A stretch of DNA of 53,048 nt from Limnothrix sp. RL_2_0 (GTDB lineage Bacteria > Cyanobacteriota > Cyanobacteriia > Cyanobacteriales > MRBY01). The DNA lies in assembly GCA_012033055.1 (NCBI GenBank), contig JAAUPR010000013.1:1-53048 (forward strand), read 5' to 3'. Each line of letters begins with the position of its first letter. The first letter of the stretch is position 1. Positions 17,933 to 32,506 of the stretch are shown here, in pieces. Made by a program: the position numbers and the translations under genes. The notes beneath the pieces are model-generated. The model worked only from the letters and a program-made list of their open reading frames with translations. It did no database searches and had not been told where the DNA came from.

Positions 17933-18256
17933 ATGGCTCGCAAAAAAATCGTTTATCAAGAATTTGGGACAGCTACCCCGGAGGTGCAAGCCACAGCCAT
18001 CGATCTGCCACCCAATCAGCAACAAATTCGCATCCAATCAACACGTTCTGGTCGCAAAGGCAAGACGGTCACCGAGATTAGGGGTTTTCAACATACTCCT
18101 GAAACGTTAATAAAATTACTCAAACAACTTAAAAATAAATGTGGTGCGGGGGGAACTCTGAAGGACCAGATCATCGAAATTCAAGGCGATCGCCGCCAAC
18201 AACTTCTAGAGTTACTGACCGAACAGGGATACAAAGCCAAAATCAGTGGCGGTTAA
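17933..18256 (+). CDS. SUI1/eIF1-family translation initiation factor (YciH-like)
   Basis: The 107-residue protein has a variable N-terminus and a SUI1 domain from about residue 30, with the TRSGRKGKTVTEIRGF basic loop, KNKCGAGGTLKDQIIEIQG and the final LLTEQGYKAKISGG. Family proteins bind the small ribosomal subunit and influence start-codon selection. The length fits bacterial YciH. It diverges from the Uma2 gene and precedes the pentapeptide protein. Confidence 0.92.
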   Translation: MARKKIVYQEFGTATPEVQATAIDLPPNQQQIRIQSTRSGRKGKTVTEIRGFQHTPETLIKLLKQLKNKCGAGGTLKDQIIEIQGDRRQQLLELLTEQGYKAKISGG

Positions 18257-18389
18257 ATTGGCATATCCGAGACTTCCTTCTTTAGGTAAATTTAGGGTAG
18301 TACTTGATTCATCCCACCGCACCATCACAAGACCCGTGGCGATCGCCCCACAACTATCCCCGACTTTTCCAGAGGCAAAAACACGACCC

Positions 18390-19313
18390 ATGGCCCAATT
18401 CACTGTTTCCGAAATCCTAGAAAAAATAGCAGCAGGAGAATCCATCGCCCAAGCCGAATTGAGTGGTCTCGACCTCAGCGGCCAAACCTTGGATCACAGT
18501 GATTTTTCCGGAGCCTATCTAAGGCGAACCAATCTCCAAAACGCCTCCTGTATCGGCATCAACTTTTCCAAAGCAACCCTGATTTTGGCAGAGTTACAGT
18601 CCTGTAACCTCACGGCAGCCAACCTCGAAAGTACCGTTTTAACCCAAAGCAACCTCAGCAATGCCAAGCTCAATAATGCCCAAGCAAAAAAAATCAAGCT
18701 CCAAGGCGCATCCCTAGATCACGCCAATGGCATTGATGGCTGTTTTGACGAAGGCGATTTCAGTACAACCAAAGCAAACCATGCACACCTAGAGCGGGCT
18801 AGCCTGATCCAAGCCAAAGTTGATCAAGCAGACTTTACCGAAGCCAATCTGACAGGAGCAAACCTTAATCGATCCCGCTGGCAAGAAGCAATTTTATCCA
18901 GAGCCATCTTAGTTTCAGCAGATCTGGGCCAAGCCCACTTCACCAGAGCAGTACTAGTCGGCGCGAATCTTTCTAAAATCTATGGCACAAATGCCACTTT
19001 CCACGAAGCAGAGTTAGCCCAGGCTATTTTTCTGTCAGCACAACTGGAATGGGTAGATTTTTGGCGTGCCAATCTGACCGGTGCAAACTTACAACAAGCG
19101 TCTTTGTTTAACGGCTCTTTGGAACTAGCTAACTTAACCGGGGCTGATTTAACCGGGGCAGATTTACGGGAGGCGAATTTTGCTCGGGCAAATTTAACGG
19201 ATGCCTGTCTCGATAATGCCAAAGTGGAAGGCGCGATGTTCGAGGAAGTGATTGGCTTAAGCGATGCACAAAAAACATTTCTTAAACATAATGGCGCTCA
19301 GGGTCTGGTGTAA
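18390..19313 (+). CDS. Pentapeptide repeat protein
   Basis: From the ATG at 18390 (MAQFTVSEILEKIAAGESIA) the protein has 307 residues. From about residue 24 to 295 it is almost entirely A(D/N)LXX pentapeptides, for example LSGLDLSGQTLDHSDFSGAY and ANLTGADLTGADLREANFAR, forming a right-handed quadrilateral beta helix. The upstream frame from 18246 overlaps the SUI1 stop and looks unlike the family, so the internal ATG is preferred. The N-terminal 20 residues match a small helical motif seen ahead of such repeats in cyanobacteria. Function unknown. Confidence 0.88.
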   Translation: MAQFTVSEILEKIAAGESIAQAELSGLDLSGQTLDHSDFSGAYLRRTNLQNASCIGINFSKATLILAELQSCNLTAANLESTVLTQSNLSNAKLNNAQAKKIKLQGASLDHANGIDGCFDEGDFSTTKANHAHLERASLIQAKVDQADFTEANLTGANLNRSRWQEAILSRAILVSADLGQAHFTRAVLVGANLSKIYGTNATFHEAELAQAIFLSAQLEWVDFWRANLTGANLQQASLFNGSLELANLTGADLTGADLREANFARANLTDACLDNAKVEGAMFEEVIGLSDAQKTFLKHNGAQGLV

Positions 19314-19568: not shown

Positions 19569-21119
19569 ATGACTGACACACCCAAAAAAGTCAAACTCAC
19601 CAAGATCGAACAAGCAAAAATCGAAAAACCCGGTTTAGCGATTAAAGACGAGATTGAACAATTTGCCCAGACCGGTTGGGAAGCGATGGATCAAGACGAC
19701 CTCATCATTCGTCTCAAATTCTTGGGATTGTTCCACCGTCCCGTGACCCCCGGCAAATTTATGATGCGGATGCGTACCCCCAATGGTGTCATCAACAGTA
19801 ACCAAATGCGCACCCATGCAGAAATTGTCCAGCGTTATGGCCAAGATGGTAGCGCCGACATCACTACCCGACAAAATATTCAACTCCGGGGTGTACACCT
19901 CGAAGACATACCCGAGATTTTCCGCAAGTTTAAAGAAGCCAACATGACCAGCGTTCAAACCGGTCATGACAACATTCGCAACATCACTGGCTCCCCCATT
20001 GCTGGCATCGACTCAGAAGAATATTTCGATACCCGTGAGCTAGCCGACAAACTCCAAGACATGATTACCAATGGCGGTGAAGGTAGCTTTGAATTTAGCG
20101 ATCTCCCCCGGAAATTTAACATTTGCCTCGAAGGCGCGCCCGATAACTCCTCCCACGTCGAAATTAATGACATCGGTTTTGTCCCTGCGTTTAAAGACGG
20201 AGAATTTGGTTTTAATGTCCTAGTTGGGGGCTATTTTTCAGCCCAGCGTGCCGCAGAAGGCGTACCAATTAATGTCTGGATTCCGCCCACAGATGAAGTA
20301 CTAGATCTTAGTCGCGCCATCATCGCAATTTATGCCCGCCACGGTGCAGAAGAAGGGCTGAGAGGAAACCGTGCTAAATCCAGAATTCTCTGGTTAGTCG
20401 AGACTTGGGGCGTTGAAAAGTTCCGTGCCAAGCTAGTGGAAGAATTGGGCAAGAGTTTATCGGAAGCAGCGCCAGAGGATGCTTTCACCATGGATAAGCG
20501 TGACCATATTGGTGTCCATCCCCAGAAGCAAGAGGGCTATAGTTTTGTGGGGCTCCATGTACCTGCGGGTCGTCTGACGGCAGAAGATATGTTCGAGATG
20601 GCGCGTCTTGCGGAAACCTATGCTGATAGTGAGATTCGTCTAACGGTAGAGCAAAATTTCATTATTCCCCATGTCAAAAATGAGAATGTGGAAGCGTTAT
20701 TAAAGGAGGATTTACTCGAAAAATTCTCTGCAAATCCAACACCGCTAGTGCGTTCTTTTGTGTCTTGTACAGGTAATCAATATTGCAACTTTGCACTCAT
20801 TGAAACGAAGGGTCAGGGCTTGGCATTGGCGCGAGAATTGGATGCGGAATTAGAGATTCCCCAACGGGTGCGGATGCATTGGACAGGTTGCCCCAACTCT
20901 TGTGGTCAGGCTCAGGTAGGTGATCTCGGGATGTTGGGTGCGAAGGCCAAGGTGGATGGCAAAATTGTTGAGGCAGTCAATCTCTATATGGGCGGCACGG
21001 TTGGCAAGCACGCTAGTCTTGGTGAGGTTGTTGAGAAAAAAGTACCTTGTGGCGACACGCTTAAGGAGAAGGTTAAGGGTATTTTGATTGAACAGTTTGG
21101 GGCCACACCCAAGGCATAA
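19569..21119 (+). CDS. nirA: Ferredoxin-nitrite reductase
   Basis: The 516-residue enzyme reduces nitrite to ammonium with six electrons from ferredoxin, using sirohaem and a 4Fe-4S cluster. The cluster/sirohaem motif is present as SCTGNQYC (about residues 397-404) and TGCPNSCGQAQVGD (about 439-452), and TTRQNIQLRG occurs near residue 100. Length is usual for cyanobacterial NirA. A canonical NtcA site precedes it and a strong terminator follows at 21149, so it is a single-gene unit here. Nitrate transporter and reductase genes are not adjacent in the window. Confidence 0.95.
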   Translation: MTDTPKKVKLTKIEQAKIEKPGLAIKDEIEQFAQTGWEAMDQDDLIIRLKFLGLFHRPVTPGKFMMRMRTPNGVINSNQMRTHAEIVQRYGQDGSADITTRQNIQLRGVHLEDIPEIFRKFKEANMTSVQTGHDNIRNITGSPIAGIDSEEYFDTRELADKLQDMITNGGEGSFEFSDLPRKFNICLEGAPDNSSHVEINDIGFVPAFKDGEFGFNVLVGGYFSAQRAAEGVPINVWIPPTDEVLDLSRAIIAIYARHGAEEGLRGNRAKSRILWLVETWGVEKFRAKLVEELGKSLSEAAPEDAFTMDKRDHIGVHPQKQEGYSFVGLHVPAGRLTAEDMFEMARLAETYADSEIRLTVEQNFIIPHVKNENVEALLKEDLLEKFSANPTPLVRSFVSCTGNQYCNFALIETKGQGLALARELDAELEIPQRVRMHWTGCPNSCGQAQVGDLGMLGAKAKVDGKIVEAVNLYMGGTVGKHASLGEVVEKKVPCGDTLKEKVKGILIEQFGATPKA

Positions 21120-21872: not shown

Positions 21873-22346
21873 TTAAGACAATTTCACGTAAACCAAATCG
21901 CCTTCGATCATCGCGGTGAATGTACCGAGTTCTTTGGTGGCAGGGCCAGTGGCAACGGAACCATCGGTGTTAAAGGAAGAACCATGGCAAGGGCAGGCAA
22001 ACTTACTAGCGCCATCCCATTTAACGGTGCAGCCTTGGTGGGGGCAGAAAGCATTCACGGCAATCAAATTCTCAGCATTCCCTGGATCACGGATCACGGC
22101 CACTTGCTCGCCATTAAAGTTCTTATCCCCAACATAGCCATCGGCATCTAGGGCAGCCACTGTACCAATAGCGGCAAAGCCATCGGCGCGGGGAGTTGTA
22201 TCAATCTCCACTTCTTCGGCTTCTGGTGGTGTGGTGGGGGCTTCGGCTTCTGGCTCTATGGGACTGGAACAGGCGGCGATCGCCACCGGGATAGAAGTGG
22301 CTAATGTCCCCAAACCGACCCAACTCAAGAATTCACGACGTTTCAT
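21873..22346 (-). CDS. Rieske [2Fe-2S] lipoprotein with twin-arginine signal
   Basis: The 157-residue protein starts MKRREFLSWVG, a twin-arginine signal, and has a lipobox ending at Cys26. After an acidic Pro-rich linker, a Rieske domain contains CPHQGC (C101, H103, C106) and CPCHGSSF (C118, C120, H121), giving the two Cys and two His cluster ligands plus the disulfide pair. It is a membrane-tethered exported electron carrier. It is much simpler than the PetC of the b6f complex. It is the last gene of a minus-strand group with ccsA-like and resB genes, 72 bp downstream of ccsA, so it probably serves the same haem chain. Confidence 0.88.
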   Translation of the reverse strand: MKRREFLSWVGLGTLATSIPVAIAACSSPIEPEAEAPTTPPEAEEVEIDTTPRADGFAAIGTVAALDADGYVGDKNFNGEQVAVIRDPGNAENLIAVNAFCPHQGCTVKWDGASKFACPCHGSSFNTDGSVATGPATKELGTFTAMIEGDLVYVKLS

Positions 22347-22418: not shown

Positions 22419-24131
22419 TTAATTGGGATTTTCAGCCGTGGTGAGGGGTTCCGCTTCGGCAGAGCTAAACCAGCCTTTATGCTTGGCTGCGGTTGCTAAA
22501 ACGAGAAGTAAATCCAAACCCACAACTCCAGCAATAAGTAATTCGGAGCCACCAGTGCCAAAACCGTAACTGTGCAAACCAGTGCCCAGGACGAAATTAA
22601 CGCCATACCAAGCCATGAGCACAGCATTAAACGAAATGATGCTCGATACATGCACACCAAAATCACCAATCCAACCCACCAAACGACCATGGAGCGGCGC
22701 AAGGTAGCAAAGGAGGGCGATTAATGCCCAAGTCTCCTTCGGATCCCAGCCCCAAAAACGTCCCCAAGAAAAGTGTGCCCAGATGCCACCGAGAATAATT
22801 CCGGCGGTTAACAGCAATACACCCACTTGCAACACGCGGTAATTAAGCTGGGACAACATTTTCAGCCGTGAACTTGCGTTAGGGGTAAATAAATAGTTAC
22901 CGATCGCCACATGACCGAGACCCATCGCCAAGGCAAAACTAGCATAACTAAGGGCAATGGTGGGGACGTGGATGCTCAACCAGAAATTATCGCGTAACAC
23001 AGGGACAAGGGGCGAAATGCTGGGATCTAATACCGCCGGCAAACTATCCGCCAACAGTAGACACATCACTGAGAGGGGAGCCGCTGCCAAAATGTAATAG
23101 CGATTGCGGGTAATTAGTTCAAAAATTAAGGCGATCGCCGCGATCCCGAAACCGACCCAAACCACCGACTCATACATATTCGTGACAGGAGGACGACCCG
23201 CGATTTGCATTCTGAGGAAAAAGCCGTAGGTCTGTACCGCAATGCCCGTACTAAACAGCCCCATCGCCGTCCAGTAGATATTCCATGGCTTAACCCAAAG
23301 GCTAACCAACATCGCGATAAACGCTAAACCATAGAGCTGCCAAGCCTTAGCAAAGGGGTGAAAATGATTGAAATGAGCTTCCCGCGCCAACACAAAATCA
23401 CTGGGATAAATGTCCGGACTCAGATTACGCAACCCGGTTTTTAGTTCATCGGTGATGCCCGTCAGCATCGATAAATGATTGATGCCTCCGTTTAAAACTG
23501 TCTGTTGCACCATCGCAAAATCGCCCACAAGCGGCGCAAATTTTTCTACGTCATACAATTCTGTAGCGTTATTAAACCCAGCCCATTTCCCTTTGATGTC
23601 CGTGGGGTGGGGCACAATGGGCAAACTCTGATCGCCGACGGAAGTATAAAGCAAATTAAGACGTTCTTCGATAGTCAAAGCTTCCCGCTCATCTCGGTTT
23701 AGATCCTGCTCATTAAATTGTTTTTCGTGGGCAAGATCCACCACTGCCGCCAATTTTTTATTGGTCATTAATTCTCGAAAAGAAAAATGCTTTTGCTCTA
23801 AATTCAGTTCAGCAATTTCCTTAAGGGGGCGATAGCTCACCAACACAAATGGCTCTTCATTCCAATTGCGGGTGTTGAACCATAGCTCTAAATAGGTGCT
23901 CAGATAATCTTCTGTTGAACCATCGGTCTGTTGATAGGTTATGGAGCCGTGAATCTTGGCGACGGTTTCTTTGGCAACGGTGTCGAGGGGCTTTTTGCGA
24001 CCATCGAGCTGCACTGTGAGGGTGCGTAGGGATTCGAGTCCGTCGGGTTGAAACTGGCTAATTGGCAGGAATAGCAGCATACAGCCGAGGCACAGACCAA
24101 TAAAATATTTGATCAGATTAGTGGCTTTCAT
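22419..24131 (-). CDS. Long CcsA/ResC-type cytochrome c biogenesis protein
   Basis: The 570-residue protein has the haem-handling Trp-rich motif WGRFWGWDPKETWALI near residues 453-470 and the surrounding His-rich helices of CcsA/ResC, which delivers haem for attachment to CXXCH. It has an extra N-terminal part of about 260 residues with one membrane helix and the segment LDGRKKPLDTVAKETVAKIH near residue 43. Standard cyanobacterial CcsA is about 320-350 residues without this part. The GR-KPLD motif reminds me of ResB/ResC pairs of Bacteroidetes and delta/epsilon-proteobacteria; this resemblance is from memory. It lies 76 bp after resB. Confidence 0.82.
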   Translation of the reverse strand: MKATNLIKYFIGLCLGCMLLFLPISQFQPDGLESLRTLTVQLDGRKKPLDTVAKETVAKIHGSITYQQTDGSTEDYLSTYLELWFNTRNWNEEPFVLVSYRPLKEIAELNLEQKHFSFRELMTNKKLAAVVDLAHEKQFNEQDLNRDEREALTIEERLNLLYTSVGDQSLPIVPHPTDIKGKWAGFNNATELYDVEKFAPLVGDFAMVQQTVLNGGINHLSMLTGITDELKTGLRNLSPDIYPSDFVLAREAHFNHFHPFAKAWQLYGLAFIAMLVSLWVKPWNIYWTAMGLFSTGIAVQTYGFFLRMQIAGRPPVTNMYESVVWVGFGIAAIALIFELITRNRYYILAAAPLSVMCLLLADSLPAVLDPSISPLVPVLRDNFWLSIHVPTIALSYASFALAMGLGHVAIGNYLFTPNASSRLKMLSQLNYRVLQVGVLLLTAGIILGGIWAHFSWGRFWGWDPKETWALIALLCYLAPLHGRLVGWIGDFGVHVSSIISFNAVLMAWYGVNFVLGTGLHSYGFGTGGSELLIAGVVGLDLLLVLATAAKHKGWFSSAEAEPLTTAENPN

Positions 24132-24207: not shown

Positions 24208-26007
24208 TTAGGAAGATTTTTTCAAGATGGTTAAATCTGATAGGGCTTGAAAAATAGGGATGGTGTTTGGGGTTTCTGGTTCGTCTGGCTGAATATTGGG
24301 GATAGCCTTGGGTTTGAATTTTTTGGCGATCGCCCGACCATAGAACATTGTAGTGATCCCGCTAACGACAAGGACAGAACCAAGCCAAGTTAAGCCCGTT
24401 ACCCACCAAGGTTCCCGCTTGAGCTGAAGAGTCGATTGCTGGAGATCGCCCGGATTCCAAGAAGCCTGTGCCAGTTTCCAGCCCCGGAACCAAGTGGGGT
24501 GATTCATCCAAACACGGCGGGGGGCAGCGGTGTCAGTGGCAGGATCAAATAAAGTCACTTCACTTGTCCACATGGCGACGGATTCACTACCCTCATTGCG
24601 TTCTACGATAAAGTCATTCAGTTTTACATAGAATGGCAATTGCAAAATTTTTGGGCTAAAGGCGGCAAAATAACTACCCTCTTCGGTAGCAAGACTGGCG
24701 GGTTCATTCCAAGGTAACCAAGCATCTTTCCCATCCGCCGTAGCCACATGGAGGGCTGGTGCACCGGATTTTTGATCGCGCAATCCTTGGGCAACGGGGG
24801 CTACAGGAACGACTTGCCGTTGTACGATCGCCTGATCAATTCGTTCTGCGAGGGAAATTTTAAAATCTGCCCAGCCGGGAGTCACGGCTTCACCGGGGAC
24901 AAATTCGCCAGACTTAAATCCTTTGGACGATGCTGCTGCGTAGAAAAGCTGATGATTGGGGGTTTCGACAATGCGGAAATAGTCTGTGCGCGTCGTTTTG
25001 GGGGCAATGTAGCTGGCAGTAAAATTAAAATCATCACCGGCACGAATCGGCTCAAAGTCGGGTTTGGCAAAAATGAACCACCGCCCTTGGCGATCGCCAT
25101 CTTTCAAGATCACTTGCAACGCCGGATTATTAAACGATTCGGAAGCAGACGTAGGTTGATTATTTTTATCTAGCCGAAAATCCGCCCAAACATCCGTAAT
25201 CTCAGCCGTAACCCCTTGGGAGAGCTTGACCAATTGACCGAGGGACTCTTTGACATCGAGACGCTTTGTGCCAATTTGCAACTCCCCAAAAACGTGATTA
25301 TTTTCAGTAGGAGCCGCCAATAATTCTGTTAATTCTTCGCCATCAGAGGCTTTCGCAATTTCCAGATGGGCAGGGCCAATGTCCATTTGTTGATAACCAA
25401 ACGGGGCGATCGCCAACCACCTTTCCAAAGTCTGACCCATGCGATCGCTCTGCAACCGGACTTTTACCGCCAGATTATCCACCGTGCCACCGTCCTGAAA
25501 TTGCACCGTAGTAATGGCGTTATCGCTATAGCCGAGCAGGGATAAGCCTGCTACTTTTTCGGGATAAACCGAGCCATCCGGGCGAATAAAAATATCAGTT
25601 TGTTGGCGATCGCCGTTGGGAGTCGCAACCTCTAAAACGTCACCCTCCACCCGAATTTGATCCACCGCAGTGCCATCCGTCCGCACCAACAGCATCCCCT
25701 CCGTACTTAGGTGAATACCGCCGCCGAGCCTGCAATAATCACGACCAAACCCCAGTGGGTCAGGGCAAAACCGATCTTCCGCGCACCGCGCCAAGGATAA
25801 CGACTCGCTGTAGAAATGCCCAGATTTGTAGCCAGCAAAAACATCAATGCCCCAAACCATGGACTCTTAATAAATCAGCGTCTGCACCGTTGCCGAGCCG
25901 ACATTCGATTCATAAAAAGTTGCGCCGATTAAAATTAGGGCGATCGCCGCCAAAAGGGGAACAGCCAAGCGAACCGATCCTAAAAACCGAACAATTTTTG
26001 AGTCCAT
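24208..26007 (-). pseudogene. ResB/Ccs1 cytochrome c biogenesis protein, two compensating frameshifts
   Basis: ResB/Ccs1 works with CcsA to keep apocytochromes and haem ready for ligation. The gene starts at the ATG 26005-26007 (MDSKIVRFLGSVRLAVPLLA), then hits TAA at 25867-25869. Reading one base over restores KSPWFGALMFLLATNLGIST and THWGLVVIIAGSAAV up to about 25715, where a second shift returns to the first frame (IHLSTEGMLL onward). One extra base near 25870 and one missing near 25714 explain it; the corrected protein is about 600 residues. The C-terminus (MNHPTWFRGWKL, WWVTGLTWLG) resembles ResB. Natural decay is unlikely to leave such clean frames. Confidence 0.8.
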
Positions 26008-26688
26008 AATGAATTTCAAATAGGCCTACAAATTAATCACACAACATCTATTATTTAGATTGCTGCAATTGCATTATTCGCTACCAAACAACTTTAGCAA
26101 TGCAAAAACAGATACTTAAGTATGCACAAATGCAATCAGAATAAAACTTAGCTCATATCCTAAATCACCGCAATTATCGACCGCACTAAATTGTTGCAAT
26201 TCCCTACACATTGAAACACTTTTGTCCTAGCATTGCCCAGCACCAAAGAAACCGATATTGACCAAAACCATATTACAAAAAAGAACCAAGTAAGTAACAA
26301 TTCACACCCAATGTAAAAAATGTAAAAAATGCATAAAAGTCATTCATTCATAACTCAAAAGCCGAACCTTTGTATCTGATTTAACAAAAGCAGAATGGAT
26401 TCCCCCGTAGCGTGATTACTCAAGTTTTAGGCCAAAGAAATTTGCCAGCGAACTTCCCCATCCTTTTTGTGACAAGTATTTACAACATTTTGAAACAAGT
26501 GGAAATATACAGCATTTATGCATAAGATTCTCAGGCAACCCCACCGACTTAAGCTGTCATATCAACCCTAAAAGAGTCATAAACTTTACACTTGCCACAA
26601 CCTTTATGGAGTTCGCACAGACTTAAGATCCTTAGATTTGAATTCAGGAAAATCAAGCCCCCTTTATTTTTTAGGAGAAGCAGAGAAC
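26008..26688. promoter_or_regulatory. Divergent regulatory region between the cytochrome-assembly and globin operons
   Basis: About 680 bp with no gene. It is AT-rich, lacks HIP1 sites, and holds several symmetrical sequences: TGCAATTGCA (26064-26073), ATACTTAAGTAT (26112-26123) and TTGTGA-N7-TTACAA (26467-26485), plus a direct TGTAAAAAA repeat at 26312-26330. It must carry promoters for resB (minus) and the di-globin (plus). The globin start has a strong AGGAGA site at 26673-26678. I cannot name the regulator. Confidence 0.5.
26467..26485. promoter_or_regulatory. CRP/FNR-like inverted repeat
   Basis: TTGTGA (26467-26472), seven bases, then TTACAA (26480-26485): an imperfect inverted repeat of the half-site type used by CRP/FNR-family regulators, but the spacer is one base longer than usual. 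It is about 200 bp before the di-globin start. Tentative. Confidence 0.3.
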
Positions 26689-27699
26689 ATGGCTGAAAAT
26701 GAAACAGGATTACAAGTTGAGCTACTAGAGTCAAGCTTTGCAAAAGTAGTACCGCAAGCAGAAGACTTTGCGAGTAGCTTCTATAAAAATCTCTTTGCTG
26801 ATTATCCCGCAGCAAAACCCCTGTTTACAGAGACCGATGTAAAAGCACAAAGTAAGAAATTATTAGCATCATTAGTATTCGTTGTTGAGAACTTAAAGAA
26901 TCCTGAGGCCTTAACGGATGCATTAAAAGGTTTAGGGTCACGCCACGTAAAATATGGTGCTTTGCCAGAACACTACCCCCTCGTTGGCAACACCCTCATC
27001 AAAACTTTCAGTCAATATTTAGGTGATGACTGGACTCCCGAGGTGAATGACGCTTGGGTGGGAGCTTACGGTGTGATTCCAGAAGTCATGCTAGATGGTG
27101 CTGATTATTCGACAGAGGAAGTTCAATTAGATCCCCCCAGTGCTGAAGTGGATGAAGCCACGGGTTTACAAGTAGCGTTGCTGGAATCTAGTTTTGCACT
27201 GGTTGTACCGAAGGCTACTGAATTTTCCGAAAGCTTTTATGCAAATCTCTTCACGGATTATCCTGCTGCGAAGCCTCTGTTTTCCGGTACTGATGTAAAG
27301 GAGCAAAGCAAAAAGCTATTAACCTCGCTCATTTTTGTAGTGGAAAACTTGAAGAAGCCTGAGGCTTTAACGGATGCTCTCAAGGGTTTAGGGGCACGCC
27401 ACGTAAAGTATGGTGCTTTGCCAGAACATTATCCCCTTGTTGGTAATACTCTACTGAAGACTTTTGAGCAATATCTCGGCTCTGATTGGACACCTGAGGT
27501 GAAAGATGCATGGGTCAAGGCCTATGGGTTGATCACTGAAGTGATGCTTGATGGTGCTGATTATTCAACGGATGAGGTGGCTCTTGATTCGGCAGTGGCA
27601 GTGGAGGCTCCGGGCAGTAATGTGGCGCAAGGAGCGGTGCCTTTTGTCGTTGGTGGTAGTGTGATTACGCTCATCATCTATCTCTTGATCTTGCTGTAA
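26689..27699 (+). CDS. Tandem two-domain globin with C-terminal membrane anchor
   Basis: The 336-residue protein has two globin domains (about residues 6-146 and 158-298) that are closely alike, and a final hydrophobic helix (about 315-336) like a tail anchor. Each resembles Vitreoscilla haemoglobin/flavohaemoglobin: FY(K/A)NLF with B10 Tyr (Y32, Y184), CD1 Phe (F46, F198), E7 Gln (Q54, Q206), proximal His (H86, H238) and the following Tyr (Y96, Y248). There is no reductase domain. Such globins bind O2 or NO; flavohaemoglobins dioxygenate NO. The anchor would put both domains in the cytoplasm at a membrane. It heads the multihaem operon. ATG 26689 follows AGGAGA. Confidence 0.88.
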   Translation: MAENETGLQVELLESSFAKVVPQAEDFASSFYKNLFADYPAAKPLFTETDVKAQSKKLLASLVFVVENLKNPEALTDALKGLGSRHVKYGALPEHYPLVGNTLIKTFSQYLGDDWTPEVNDAWVGAYGVIPEVMLDGADYSTEEVQLDPPSAEVDEATGLQVALLESSFALVVPKATEFSESFYANLFTDYPAAKPLFSGTDVKEQSKKLLTSLIFVVENLKKPEALTDALKGLGARHVKYGALPEHYPLVGNTLLKTFEQYLGSDWTPEVKDAWVKAYGLITEVMLDGADYSTDEVALDSAVAVEAPGSNVAQGAVPFVVGGSVITLIIYLLILL

Positions 27700-27729: not shown

Positions 27730-28380
27730 ATGGCACAGGAATCTAAAAAGAAAGGGTTTGGTTGGCGATCGCTGATTAATTTTAAGGTGGCAACCATTGC
27801 GGCTTGTCTTGCTTTGATTGGTTTATTTGCGGCGGCGTTTGCCCTAGATGCCAAACAGGTGTTTTTGCCGGGGGAGACTTCGGTGGGTCACTATCTTTTT
27901 GAAACGTCCTGTGCTTCTTGCCATGAGGGTTTTAAGCCTGTCACCAATGACACTTGTATGAGTTGTCACGAGGCGGAGCTGGCGCAGGATCTCCATGGGG
28001 CCTCAAAGTTTCGGGATCCCCGCTGGGCGGGCGATTTGGAAAAGATTGCGGCTTTAACTTGTACCACCTGCCACGAAGAACATGTGCATATGTTTGATCG
28101 GGGGGTCAATCTCCAACCGGATCTTTGTATGGCTTGTCATGAGGGCATTATCAATGGTGACCTCAAAAGTCATGATGGTTTTACGCCGGATGGTTGCTGG
28201 ACTGCTGGTTGTCATAATTACCATGATCACCGCACCATTTCGACAGGCTTTCTGCGCGCAAATCTGGATCAACCGCCGATGTTACCGGTACAGCAAATGC
28301 CTGATCGCACGGTGGTGACCACTGTGGAGACTGCGCCAAAACCGGATCTGAGCCAAGAATTTTTAGGAGGTAGCCAATGA
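27730..28380 (+). CDS. Membrane-anchored multihaem cytochrome c (five haem motifs)
   Basis: The 216-residue protein has an N-terminal membrane helix (about 17-40) and five haem c motifs: CASCH (61-65), CMSCH (76-80), CTTCH (111-115), CMACH (133-137) and CWTAGCH (156-162), the last a CX4CH variant. Extra His residues (H54, H118, H120, H165, H167) could be distal ligands. The topology resembles a membrane-bound NrfH/NapC or c3-like electron-transfer cytochrome, but I do not see a definite family match. Its stop overlaps the start of the next gene in ATGA, a sign of translational coupling. Confidence 0.85.
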   Translation: MAQESKKKGFGWRSLINFKVATIAACLALIGLFAAAFALDAKQVFLPGETSVGHYLFETSCASCHEGFKPVTNDTCMSCHEAELAQDLHGASKFRDPRWAGDLEKIAALTCTTCHEEHVHMFDRGVNLQPDLCMACHEGIINGDLKSHDGFTPDGCWTAGCHNYHDHRTISTGFLRANLDQPPMLPVQQMPDRTVVTTVETAPKPDLSQEFLGGSQ

Positions 28381-29147
28381 GGATTTTAATCACGCTACTT
28401 TTTGCTTGCTCTTTGTTTTTTGGCTGGGGCCATCCGGCGATCGCCGCCGACCAAAATTTAGTCAAGGAGACCACCCAGCTATGGGAAGACAGTCTGCACG
28501 CCCTAAACGATGTGAATTGTTCAAGCTGCCACACCGATGAAAAAACCAAGGAGTTTGTCGCAAAACCCCAAACCAGTTGTCGGTCTTGCCACGAGGCAGC
28601 GGTGGATACGTTTCTCTTGGGTAAGCATGGTATTCGTCTACGGGAAGGGAAACCGGCCTTAACTCCGGCGATCGCCCGATTACCGATGCGAGAAGATGCC
28701 CACAATCTTCAGATGAACTGCAACACTTGCCACGATGTTCATTCAGTAAAAACGGTACCAGCAGCGGTGGATTCCTGTTTAACCTGCCATGCCGATAACC
28801 ATTCCCTGAACTACAAAAATTCGCGCCATGCGGAGCTGTTCGATGCCGATCGCAATTTACCCAGACCCTCCGCCGATTCAGTGAGCTGTGCCACCTGCCA
28901 TTTACCTCGCCACGAAGCGAAGCTCAGCGATCGCACCACCGCTTTGGTCAATCACAACAACACCTATAACCTGTTACCGCGCGATCGCATGGTGGGGGAA
29001 GTCTGTATGAATTGTCACGGCGTGGAGTACAGCTACAACAGTATTTTTGATGACAAGTTAGTGGAGGCGAATTTCGATGCACCGCCCACACTCTCCCTTG
29101 AAACCTTTGACCTCGTCCGCGAACTCGAAAAGCGGCGGGCAGAGTAA
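28377..29147 (+). CDS. Exported six-haem cytochrome c
   Basis: The 256-residue protein has a signal peptide cleaved near AIAA-DQ (about residue 24) and six CXXCH motifs at 48-52, 68-72, 115-119, 134-138, 171-175 and 210-214, so it should carry six c haems in the lumen or periplasm. The segment NHNNTYNLLPRDRMVGEVC before the last haem is unusual and could be an active-site-like region. No Lys-type (CXXCK) catalytic motif is present, so it is not an NrfA. It follows a strong AGGAGG site within the preceding gene. Confidence 0.85.
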   Translation: MRILITLLFACSLFFGWGHPAIAADQNLVKETTQLWEDSLHALNDVNCSSCHTDEKTKEFVAKPQTSCRSCHEAAVDTFLLGKHGIRLREGKPALTPAIARLPMREDAHNLQMNCNTCHDVHSVKTVPAAVDSCLTCHADNHSLNYKNSRHAELFDADRNLPRPSADSVSCATCHLPRHEAKLSDRTTALVNHNNTYNLLPRDRMVGEVCMNCHGVEYSYNSIFDDKLVEANFDAPPTLSLETFDLVRELEKRRAE

Positions 29148-29263: not shown

Positions 29264-29917
29264 ATGGCATTCATAGAAAATTGGCTCACAGCGATTCGGA
29301 CTCGTACCGTCGCTTTCCTCGCTATTGTCTTGGCGATCGCCGTAACAGCCGTATCCTGTAGCGGAGGTGCTCCCACAGCATCTGCCCCCGCAGGCATCGA
29401 TCCCTCACTAGTAGCAGAGTACATTCATACTGTCCTTGCCGCTGACCGTACCGCCTATACCAAGCATGTCGTCAGTCGCGCCAAAATGCTTGAAGGCAAA
29501 GAGAAGCCCGATGGTGTTCTCGATATCGAAGCAACAGAAGGTTGGCAACAAACCGATGGCATTCCTCTACCAGCACAAATGTTCCGTCTCGGTTCTGAAA
29601 TTGCCAATGAGTCTGGCTTCTTTACCTACAACCTCATTTCGGAGTGGTACATCAACGATAACCATGCTCCCAAAGGTGAGTTTGAAGAAACAGCCCTTGC
29701 AACCATGACTGAAACCGGCGAAGCAGTGAAAGACTATCAAGAGATTGGTGGTCAGCAATATTATTCTGCAATGTATCCTGATATCGCTGTTGTCGAATCT
29801 TGTGCCACTTGCCACAACACCCACCCTGTCCACCTTGAGCGTTACCCCGACAAGATATTTGAGGTTGGCGATGTCATGGGCGGCGTCGTGATCAATATCC
29901 CCATGGATAATGCTTAA
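29264..29917 (+). CDS. Tll0287-like (DUF3365) haem c lipoprotein
   Basis: The 217-residue protein has a signal peptide with lipobox (AVSC, Cys32) and a domain of the DUF3365/Tll0287 type, ending in one CATCH haem motif (residues 180-184) and the final strand FEVGDVMGGVVINIPM. Tll0287 of Thermosynechococcus is a c-type cytochrome found with photosystem II preparations and its fold resembles a PAS-like/cache sensor. This copy is lipid-anchored and placed inside a multihaem operon. The ribosome site TTTTTAGGAGAA resembles that of the di-globin. A sensor or an electron-transfer role are both open. Confidence 0.8.
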   Translation: MAFIENWLTAIRTRTVAFLAIVLAIAVTAVSCSGGAPTASAPAGIDPSLVAEYIHTVLAADRTAYTKHVVSRAKMLEGKEKPDGVLDIEATEGWQQTDGIPLPAQMFRLGSEIANESGFFTYNLISEWYINDNHAPKGEFEETALATMTETGEAVKDYQEIGGQQYYSAMYPDIAVVESCATCHNTHPVHLERYPDKIFEVGDVMGGVVINIPMDNA

Positions 29918-30031: not shown

Positions 30032-30730
30032 ATGAGTAGCCCCGGCCAAAATCAAAATATCGTAAATGATGATGCGGCGATCGCCTCTGGGGAGGCCGAA
30101 CTCTCTCTACCGCAACCACCCCGCCGACCGAATAAGCTCCAGCCCACCTTTAAGATTCTGCTGGGACTAACGTTTCTCACGGCATTACTCCTCTTGCCCT
30201 TTGCCTTTAGTGACAGTTACCTCGCCATGCTCCGGGAGAATGCAGTGGATGTCCATGGCCTACTGCGGGGAGAATTGTATAAACAAAGTACAGGTTATAT
30301 TGCATTGGCTTTTTCTGCCTTTGAAATGGCTTTGACCTTACGTAAGCGCGGACGAGGCTGGATTGTACGGATCAAAATTCCCGGCTCCATGAATTTTTGG
30401 CGCAGCACCCATATCTTTTTAGGGGTGGCGATGCTTGGGATGATCTGCATCCATACCATTGGCGCGACGGGGGTGAATTTTAATGCTATTTTTCTGTGGG
30501 TATTTTTTGCGGTGACCTTGACAGCCCTGATGGGTGTGGTCGCTGAAACGGGTATTTTAGAATCATCTCGCCGCTACTTTGGTAAACTCCCCGGGATGAA
30601 TTCTCCTTTCACCAAAGGCCCATTAATTCGAAGCTTGAGGGCGATTTGGTTAACGAGTCATATCTTTTTTGTCAGTATTTTCTTTGTGATGTTAGTGATG
30701 CACATTGCTTTGGTGTATTACTACCAATAA
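30032..30730 (+). CDS. Membrane cytochrome b-type protein (two HX13H pairs)
   Basis: From the ATG at 30032 the protein has 232 residues and about four membrane helices. His127/His141 lie 14 residues apart in one helix and His210/His224 14 apart in another, the classical arrangement for two stacked bis-His b haems across a membrane, as in cytochrome b, NOX and ferric reductases. A further His75 is in the loop DVHGLLRGELY. The soluble N-terminus (1-38) is low-complexity. No flavin domain is present. It probably passes electrons between the exported haem c proteins and the cytoplasm or quinones; direction is unknown. Confidence 0.8.
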   Translation: MSSPGQNQNIVNDDAAIASGEAELSLPQPPRRPNKLQPTFKILLGLTFLTALLLLPFAFSDSYLAMLRENAVDVHGLLRGELYKQSTGYIALAFSAFEMALTLRKRGRGWIVRIKIPGSMNFWRSTHIFLGVAMLGMICIHTIGATGVNFNAIFLWVFFAVTLTALMGVVAETGILESSRRYFGKLPGMNSPFTKGPLIRSLRAIWLTSHIFFVSIFFVMLVMHIALVYYYQ

Positions 30731-30778: not shown

Positions 30779-31245
30779 TTGGCAGAAAAAGTAGCGGGCA
30801 AAAAATCTAGTGTGTTGGCGATCGCCGTAATTGTCATTTTTGCGGTGGGGGCGTTTTTCCTCACTCGTCCGGTGACTGGCACAGAGACAGTCTCTTCGGT
30901 GTCTGGTTTAATGAGCCTCCAAGTCGCGGCGCAGCAAGCCACTCCCTATAATTTGGCGATCGCAACGGGCAGCCGACCTTAGTCGAATTTTATGCCGATT
31001 GGTGTACCACCTGTCAGGCCATGGCCCCCACCATCGATGCGGTGCATACAGAATTTTCAGACGAACTGAACTTTGTGATGCTAAATATTGACGATCCCCA
31101 ATGGCAAAATCAGGTGGAACAATATAAAGTAAATGGGGTGCCTCATTTCGTTTTGTTACAAAAAGATCTTAATGTGGCGGAAACATACATTGGCAGAGTT
31201 CCTTTCCGAATTTTGGCAGATCGTATTGCAACCCTAGTGAGTTAA
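30779..31245 (+). pseudogene. txlA: TxlA/HCF164-type membrane thioredoxin, one-base frameshift
   Basis: The N-terminal frame starts at a TTG (30779), has a membrane helix (VLAIAVIVIFAVGAFFLT) and stops at 30981. In the next frame the sequence continues naturally as GQPTLVEFYADWCTTCQAMA and the thioredoxin fold to 31245. Adding one A to the AA at 30964-30965 joins them as AIANGQPTLVEF. The active site WCTTC matches HCF164/TxlA, which reduces apocytochrome cysteines in the thylakoid lumen for haem attachment, a good fit to the neighbouring c-type cytochromes. No ATG is available in frame, and the TTG is the first possible start. Confidence 0.8.
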
Positions 31246-31323: not shown

Positions 31324-31542
31324 ATGGTCATCCTAAAGTATTTTCTCTATTTACTAGAACTATTAGAGCAAGTGGCAGAATTTATTGAGATGCTAACGAC
31401 CCCAGTGGGCTTGGCGGCGATGGTCTGTCTCACGAGTTATGAAACCTTGATGTTGTTGGGTTGCGATGCGGCAAACTCGGTGGTCTTAGCCGTTGTGGTG
31501 ACCTTGACTTTCCACTCCACCTCCAACCGTCCTAACTTTTAG
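31324..31542 (+). CDS. Small hydrophobic protein, function unknown
   Basis: A 72-residue frame beginning MVILKYFLYLLELLEQVAEF with two hydrophobic stretches (about 3-20 and 25-62), a GGAAG sequence before the ATG, and a gap of 79 bp from txlA. I do not recognise it. The composition suits a small membrane protein, but it could be a chance frame. Confidence 0.45.
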   Translation: MVILKYFLYLLELLEQVAEFIEMLTTPVGLAAMVCLTSYETLMLLGCDAANSVVLAVVVTLTFHSTSNRPNF

Positions 31543-31612: not shown

Positions 31613-32506
31613 ATGGGATTTTGGCAACGATGTGGTTTTGTGATTTTAGGTGGTTGTTTGGCGATCGCCCCGGTAGCTTGTTCAGCCCCAGAGGAAACCC
31701 AAAATACAGAAATCCAGCCCCCTCCAGCAATGCCGGAGCAATCTTTGGAGCCACTATTGGCGGCGGATGTGGTGTATCTCGGCGAACAGCATGATAGTGC
31801 GGCTGACCACGCGGCTCAGTTGGAAATTATTCAAGCACTCTACAGCGCTAATCCCAATTTGGCGATCGGTCTAGAGATGTTCCAGCGGCCATTCCAGCCC
31901 ATCGTTGATCGATATATTGCTGGGGAAATCACCGAAGCAGAGTTTGTGGAACAGAGTGAATACGAGAAGCGGTGGGGCTTTCCATGGGAGCTTTATGCAC
32001 CAATTTTACGATTTGCGCAGGAAAATCAGATTCCGGTTTTGGCGTTAAATGCCCCCAATGAGGTGGTGAGCTTTGTGGCACGGGAAGGCTTGGTTAATTT
32101 AACCCCCGAAGATTTCACTTATATTCCCCGCGTTTCGGATCTGGATCTGAGTAATACGAATTACAGGAATTTTGTGCAGGGGGCTTTCGGTGCCCATGGG
32201 CAGCATGGCAATTTTAATTTTGATAATTTCTTTGCGGCTCAGGTGGTGTGGGACGAAACGATGGCTACGACGATCGCCGACTTTCGACTAGCTAACCCCG
32301 ACACTAAAGTGGTTGTCCTCGCGGGTCTAGGCCATGTGATTTATGGGTACGGCATTCCTGACCGGGTGGAAAGGCGGCTGGGCAAAGATCTAGAAAGTCA
32401 AATTGTGTTGTTAAATCCTTTGCCTGAACTGACCCTAGATGGCCCGGCGATCGCCGATATGTTTTGGTGGAGTAAAGGATCACCAGAAATCGAAGCGACT
32501 CCTTAG
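31613..32506 (+). CDS. ChaN family lipoprotein
   Basis: The 297-residue protein has a signal peptide with lipobox (APVACSA) and the ChaN/Tiki domain: VVYLGEQHDSAADHAAQLEI near residue 54, GLEMFQRP near 86 and LAGLGHVIYGYGIP near 243. Members are described as haem-binding uptake proteins of the Tiki superfamily. Its placement after the haem cluster may be meaningful but could be chance. It has its own start region and lies 70 bp after the small hydrophobic gene. Confidence 0.82.
   Translation: MGFWQRCGFVILGGCLAIAPVACSAPEETQNTEIQPPPAMPEQSLEPLLAADVVYLGEQHDSAADHAAQLEIIQALYSANPNLAIGLEMFQRPFQPIVDRYIAGEITEAEFVEQSEYEKRWGFPWELYAPILRFAQENQIPVLALNAPNEVVSFVAREGLVNLTPEDFTYIPRVSDLDLSNTNYRNFVQGAFGAHGQHGNFNFDNFFAAQVVWDETMATTIADFRLANPDTKVVVLAGLGHVIYGYGIPDRVERRLGKDLESQIVLLNPLPELTLDGPAIADMFWWSKGSPEIEATP

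Follow-up and report, generated by a model that had tools for sequence, protein, structure and literature searches.

Gene order across cyanobacterial genomes shows that the tandem globin of Limnothrix sp. RL_2_0 belongs to one conserved gene set, together with two multihaem cytochromes (MHC1 and MHC2), a Tll0287-type protein and a membrane cytochrome b. The globin gene lies in a stretch of 53,048 nucleotides (contig JAAUPR010000013.1), which was analysed as a whole and is called here the window. The original prediction on this DNA dealt with the similarity between the two halves of the globin, and the larger finding is its gene context, not that similarity. Each part of the cluster is of a known kind, and the combination was not found described in the literature searched, which was mostly non-subscription and was judged by title and start of abstract among the matches listed.

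Composition and distribution of the gene set

The following features were assigned in the window, where + and − denote the strand:

21873–22346, −: Rieske protein (PF00355), with a leader that looks twin-arginine or lipoprotein-like by eye
22419–24131, −: CCSA, 570-aa CcsA paralogue
24208–26007, −: CCS1, divergent ResB-like haem-attachment protein, frame disturbed near its start
26689–27699, +: GLB, tandem globin open reading frame P0001, 336 aa by translation
GLB residues 1–150, 151–302 and 317–335: domain 1, domain 2 and predicted C-terminal membrane helix (split and hydropathy)
27730–28380, +: MHC1, pentahaem c-type cytochrome whose last haem motif is CX4CH (CWTAGCH), with a membrane helix at the N-terminus
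28377–29147, +: MHC2, hexahaem c-type cytochrome with an N-terminal hydrophobic leader
29264–29917, +: TLL, Tll0287/sCache_heme lipoprotein-like protein with one CxxCH (PF11845)
30032–30730, +: CYTB, cytochrome b-like membrane protein with an invariant pair of His in each of two helices (PF14358 and PF01292, below cut-off)
30779–31245, +: TRX, thioredoxin-like protein with an N-terminal hydrophobic segment, frame broken here
31324–31542, +: 72-aa small hydrophobic protein (family of 17 loci; the window frame was placed by eye)
31613–32506, +: ChaN-like haem-binding protein (PF04187, 238 bits)

The conservation of the cluster was studied in 40 stretches, coming from the 36 other genomes with MHC2 in the class draw, from the congener G001 and from the globin-only locus L106, with two genomes giving two, and 20 more stretches were added to these first 40. 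The order globin, MHC1, MHC2, TLL and CYTB, usually followed by the thioredoxin and often by the 72-aa and ChaN-like proteins, was nearly constant. Apart from the window, MHC1 was detected in 39 loci, 37 of them with a readable upstream side (the stretches of L074 and L099 end within 170 bases of MHC1 and are outside this count), and in all 37, as well as in the window, the globin is the nearest upstream neighbour of MHC1 on the same strand, at a gap of −35 to 275 bases. No TLL was called in L002, in which an overlapping frame is present. CCSA was found in 30 of the 41 cluster stretches, many of which are cut by contig ends, and the Rieske protein in 21 of those 30; the ChaN-like protein was found in 13 of the 41, some of them also cut. 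Ccs1 and a second paralogue of CcsA are frequent neighbours of the cluster.

Regarding its distribution, MHC2 was present in 37/388 genomes of the class draw (24/334 of the good ones), and MHC1 in 4/386 genomes of the phylum draw, each time with the cluster, a figure that may be an undercount as at most seven first-look candidates per genome were scored. The frequency of the cluster depends on the genome draw. Multihaem cytochrome pairs are best known from metal-reducing bacteria; with these counts they become a recurrent part of cyanobacterial genomes, and one that appears tied to nitrogen control. Within the genus, two of six genomes carry the globin cluster, namely that of the window and G001. 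The congener G004 lacks everything from CCS1 through CYTB, of which a 3' remnant is left at 76% identity, and keeps CCSA, the thioredoxin, the ChaN-like protein and, judged by eye, a 78-aa counterpart of the 72-aa protein; a Rieske match was likewise not seen in it. The long CcsA being kept in G004 in the absence of the cytochromes, this protein may not be dedicated to those of the cluster. Plasmid-borne spread was rejected, with no match to MHC1 at 1e-10 in 72,556 plasmid records, and so was a phage origin, the two proteins tested (the globin and MHC1) having no PHROG match.

Some further observations were made around the cluster. In the window, the reading frames of TRX and of the beginning of CCS1 are broken, whereas relatives have them intact; either assembly errors or decay would be the cause. 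A ferredoxin-nitrite reductase, NirA, is encoded nearby at 19569–21119, and no match to it was seen in the cluster stretches of relatives. Close to the cluster there are also recurrent pentapeptide-repeat proteins, many with a length of about 308 aa (35 of them in 26 loci when grouped by similarity), and a frame of this kind was assigned by eye at 18246–19313 of the window.

The tandem globin and its two halves

The PF00042 model recognised two globin stretches in GLB (140.8 bits for the whole protein, with a cut-off of 22), which are the sole PF00042 matches of the Limnothrix sp. RL_2_0 genome; likewise, GLB gave one match in its own draft genome (4.13 Mb, 97% complete). The only further Pfam match, RamC_N, was below cut-off. 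The AlphaFold model presents two all-helical domains (mean pLDDT of 70.6, with the tail poorly predicted), and Foldseek matched it to engineered tandem haemoglobins, to syNOS chains and to Hell's Gate globin I (HGbI), the latter with a TMt of 0.90 over one domain. As had been predicted for each domain, Tyr32 (B10), Phe46 (CD1), Gln54 (E7) and His86 (F8) are kept, and they were found to be invariant in 75/75 aligned core globin domains, the B10 position being fixed through alignment to 3tld (the Vitreoscilla Y29F entry). Two of these 75 domains are from the window and five from four non-cluster globins (L106, L003, L004 and L088.9); five rows, one of them a contig-cut fragment and the other four divergent second globins whose B10 residue is His, had been set aside before the core alignment. 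Having the 3/3 globin fold and these residues, GLB belongs to the flavohaemoglobin class (F/M family).

No FAD/NAD(P)H reductase domain was detected in the Pfam scan of GLB, in agreement with the original prediction, and the best stretch of NF009805 on the protein is under its cut-off and covers only positions 7–135 of 399, so that GLB, lacking the C-terminal reductase domain, is not a flavohaemoglobin proper. The Glu H23 of the flavohaemoglobin proximal triad appears to be replaced in this globin family by an invariant Ala138, although this residue is two positions past the end of the alignment to the solved relatives. No signalling transmitter domain was found either, GLB having just two globin domains and a tail, and by this measure it is not a globin-coupled sensor.

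Hydropathy analysis gave a single hydrophobic segment, at residues 317–335, and none at the N-terminus, which supports the membrane attachment proposed earlier for the C-terminal helix; by default, the globins would lie inside, held by a C-terminal tail anchor. Among the cluster globins, five have three domains, 24 have two (including those of the window and L075) and nine have one, the contig-cut globin of L105 being outside this tally. The hydrophobic tail was found in 5/5 of the three-domain proteins, in 22/23 of the two-domain ones with an intact 3' end and in 4/9 of the single-domain ones, the tails of L129 and L130 being judged by eye. A homology search for two-domain globins with a C-terminal helix had been suggested, and in its light the predicted membrane tail is a frequent feature of the cluster globins, but not a defining one.

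The two halves had been described as near-identical and, because of their long identical stretches, as the product of recent duplication or gene conversion. The two domains were confirmed, but their identity is 79% at the protein level and 71% at the DNA level, and the comparison of the halves gave a synonymous difference of 0.78, which means saturation and speaks against a recent duplication. Identical codons were found at 52 of the 115 degenerate positions that encode the same residue, and shuffling gave P = 0.14 for the best or densest local run of identical codons, with no significant conversion tract. The shared peptide VKYGALPEHYPLVGN is 77–100% conserved per position across the 75 core domains, and the stretch quoted in the original prediction is likewise conserved up to VGN, in such a way that the identity of the halves can be attributed to purifying selection, that is, to a family-wide constraint. 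In a tree of 79 domains, domain 2 of the window groups with domain 2 of the congener G001 (support 96/94), so the duplication predates the split of these species; one clade of 17 rows is mostly sorted into first domains and second domains, and in other clades the domains of one gene group together. A recent duplication or conversion of the halves was consequently rejected.

The globin family extends beyond the cytochrome cluster. Globin matches at 1e-20 or better were detected in 93/388 class genomes, which include 35 of the 37 genomes with MHC2 (contig ends truncate the loci of the remaining two, G221 and G377), and L003 and L004 hold close relatives with no cytochromes alongside. The globin-positive genomes lacking MHC2 were examined in part, through the 20 extra stretches and L106. 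A globin scan of genome contigs gave three loci, all of them cyanobacterial. In L068, L071, L074 and L105 a second, distinct globin gene is located between CYTB and the thioredoxin, coding for a protein of 175–176 aa with His at B10 and a conserved C-terminal extension. Fusions of 618–669 aa, with a tandem globin, a membrane helix and pentapeptide repeats, were recognised by eye in L106, L133, L134, L135, L137 and L139; by eye, they share with GLB the two related globin domains and the membrane segment, whereas no cytochrome cluster accompanies them in the stretches of 7–16 kb around them. The same class of globin is fused, also by eye, to cyclase-like sensors, MscS-like channels and a histidine kinase in L140–L145.

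A putative nitrogen-control promoter

Upstream of the globin gene, two elements were located in the window:

26372–26385, +: NtcA-type site GTATCTGATTTAAC, with one mismatch to GTAN8TAC
26408–26413, +: −10 box TAGCGT, of TAN3T type, 22 nt after the NtcA-type site

The canonical NtcA-activated promoter is described as a GTAN8TAC site with a TAN3T box (PMC3898017). The site was present in 16/37 globin upstream regions compared with 15/176 control regions, and the complete GTAN8TAC-N20-24-TAN3T arrangement in 12/37 compared with 2/176, with P = 1e-8, a value that is too small because the 37 loci are related. When one mismatch was allowed the numbers were 29/37 and 18/176, and an earlier, looser control had given 12/142 for GTAN8TAC and 2/142 with the TAN3T box. 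The L074 region, one of the 37, belongs to the wrong globin gene; it had no site and entered the tally as negative.

Regarding the geometry, the spacing from site to box is exactly 22 in 12 of the 16 strict sites, which are distributed in 7/10 families (counted by hand). The GTA/TAC half-sites are separated by 8 bases in 16/38 loci, and by 4–7 or 9–14 bases in 0–4 loci. Among the 64 half-sites at an 8-base gap, TTT (20 of 38 loci) and AAA (18) exceeded GTA (16), these being A+T-rich stretches. Patterns of FNR, NsrR and CRP type were found upstream in at most 2/38 loci. These data support that the cluster family has the site and box of a canonical NtcA-activated promoter, the putative site of the window carrying one mismatch.

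Haem proteins of the cluster and possible function

The five haem motifs of MHC1, including the conserved CX4CH, are accompanied by 6 further invariant His in 17 sequences, and the six CxxCH of MHC2 by another 6 in 16 sequences; with a spare invariant His per c-type haem, both proteins look like bis-His wires. A search of both sequences for an open catalytic haem gave none. MHC2 resembles parts of HAO-like and NrfA-type chains (best E = 2.8e-8), but all its motifs are CxxCH and none is CxxCK, so that, judged by this motif and by open coordination, it would be neither an NrfA or octahaem nitrite reductase nor an HAO. Both cytochromes also resemble cytochrome c3/c7, and 16/17 MHC1 weakly match MtrC/MtrF domains.

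In CYTB, His127/141 and His210/224 are invariant in 20 sequences, each pair being 14 residues apart within one of two helices, which is the usual layout for two b haems. DUF4405 was weakly matched by 11/20 members, the similarity to b561 is also weak, and the CYTB profile had no match at E 1 in the PDB; the structural model is poor (pLDDT 52.8). TLL has a hydrophobic leader ending near a conserved Cys32, followed by one CxxCH, and gave a weak match to 5b82 (E 0.027). It shares with Tll0287/sCache_heme proteins the PF11845 match and the CxxCH. Stand-alone Tll0287 is described as having Cys/His ligation (PMC12889525); as Cys32 and the CxxCH pair are the only conserved cysteines in TLL, this ligation is probably unavailable, and, in contrast with the stand-alone protein, the second axial ligand of TLL is probably a residue other than Cys.

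The clearest open haem sites among the cluster proteins are those of the globin, from which we infer that the cytochromes feed or drain it. The reading that we favour, which we hold tentatively and put at slightly below an even chance, is that the globin, tethered to the membrane, acts on NO and/or O2 and is re-reduced by a transmembrane haem wire that replaces the flavin reductase. Within a membrane module for electron transfer, the tandem globin would be the end that binds the ligand and probably carries out the catalysis, with its domains in the cytoplasm at the membrane surface. MHC1 and MHC2 would be periplasmic, and CYTB, with its two haems, would join the outside c-type haems to the inner face, in such a way that single electrons could pass along the wire to the ferric globin, in place of the FAD/NAD(P)H reductase of flavohaemoglobin. 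The globin would then bind O2 and convert NO to nitrate, as an NO dioxygenase, or reduce NO or O2, mainly under shortage of combined nitrogen. The NO reading is based on the globin class, on the nitrogen control and on the globin of cyanobacterial NOS, described as an NO dioxygenase (PMC6104048, PMC12922734). The electrons could flow in either direction; proteins of the CbcL/MtoC/MtrH type are described as probably working both ways (PMC6295460).

Several observations count against the haem-wire model: the tail-less globins in 5/9 single-domain cluster loci; the cytochrome-free globins elsewhere, with 93/388 globin-positive genomes and 37 with MHC2; the likely loss of the proximal Glu; the mismatch in the NtcA-type site of the window; the poor CYTB model; and the absence of NOS from the genome of the window. 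Regarding the latter, PF02898 was detected in 2 of the 22 genomes searched (18 with the cluster and 4 congeners), both of them cluster genomes (G087 and G146), and a partner NOS as the source of NO was rejected.

It is possible, but unlikely, that the globin is instead a gas-sensing regulatory subunit in which bound O2 or NO opens or closes the passage of electrons along CYTB and the periplasmic cytochromes, and that the main activity, either the oxidation of quinol or the export of electrons, belongs to the latter. Cyanobacterial relatives joined (by eye) to apparent histidine kinase, cyclase, MscS and pentapeptide parts fit with such a role, as do the variation in globin copy number from 1 to 3 and the optional tails, and stand-alone Tll0287 proteins are described with likely redox roles and sensor-fused ones as binding NO (PMC12889525). 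However, the cluster globin has no transmitter domain, and sensing would leave the wire with no recognised catalytic haem protein, having in mind the spare His of MHC1 and MHC2. Storage or delivery of O2, or a role as electron safety valve, has been proposed for Vitreoscilla haemoglobin. A similar role here, with the globin storing and delivering O2 at the membrane or acting as an O2-reducing valve, seems improbable to us: the nearest solved relatives do include Vitreoscilla haemoglobin and HGbI, tandem domains would raise the local haem concentration and NtcA control could fit the protection of nitrogenase from oxygen, but an oxygen store does not need an 11-haem cytochrome pair and a terminal oxidase was not seen in the scan of nine window proteins. 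Moreover, nifD was present in 16/37 cluster genomes and 114/351 others (P = 0.20, counted by hand, with soft absences since some cluster genomes are incomplete) and is lacking in the genome of the window, so nitrogenase protection as a common purpose of the cluster was rejected.

More doubtful still is a conduit for extracellular or inter-compartment electron transfer, formed by a CbcL-like quinol oxidoreductase and periplasmic carriers, in which the globin would be a passenger or a scavenger of NO or O2 protecting the haems. The likeness of MHC1 and MHC2 to cytochrome c3/c7, the weak MtrC/MtrF matches of MHC1 and the CbcL-like layout of CYTB with multihaem c proteins would be expected from it. 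Against it, no outer-membrane porin was recognised among the same nine proteins, the presence of the globin in 37/37 assessable loci is unlike that of a passenger, and NtcA-type promoters fit nitrogen better than metals. CbcL, MtoC and MtrH share with the cluster a di-haem b-like membrane part and a multihaem c part, but here the b and c parts are separate proteins with a globin alongside; the one-protein HydC/FdnI-like b/c arrangement of the CbcL type is thus not what the genes predict, although a similar working is possible.

Among the known counterparts of GLB, flavohaemoglobin (Hmp) and the single-domain globins of its class (VHb, Cgb and HGbI) have in common with it the globin class and its Tyr B10, Gln E7, Phe CD1 and His F8, whereas GLB has no FAD/NAD reductase and adds tandem domains, a membrane tail and a multihaem cytochrome operon. 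The NOS of Synechococcus PCC 7335, also cyanobacterial and with two globin-like domains (a globin and a pseudoglobin), was matched by GLB over 292–295 alignment columns in Foldseek. One of these domains is described as binding no haem, and the globin as reduced by the flavin part of the same protein (PMC12922734); in contrast, His F8 is retained in the two GLB domains, and the nine window proteins scanned include no recognisable flavin protein. The electron donor is reported as not known for most such globins (PMC3820574), and the cluster offers a candidate donor beside the globin in every assessable locus, which makes the question testable. The driving mechanism stands a fair chance of being new, and we regard it as a tentative possibility, less likely than not, that this is the first globin enzyme on a transmembrane multihaem wire, with 11 periplasmic c haems and two membrane b haems under nitrogen control. 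If true, the respiratory or photosynthetic chain would be coupled to the removal of NO or to the recovery of its nitrogen, and the system would have its own haem-attachment genes.

Concerning these genes, the CcsA of the cluster is possibly part of a machinery for haem attachment that is adapted to multihaem proteins or to CX4CH motifs. Its N-terminus carries a long additional region, and the genome of the window also has a shorter CcsA-like frame of 342 aa on contig C191, which we take to be the canonical CcsA.
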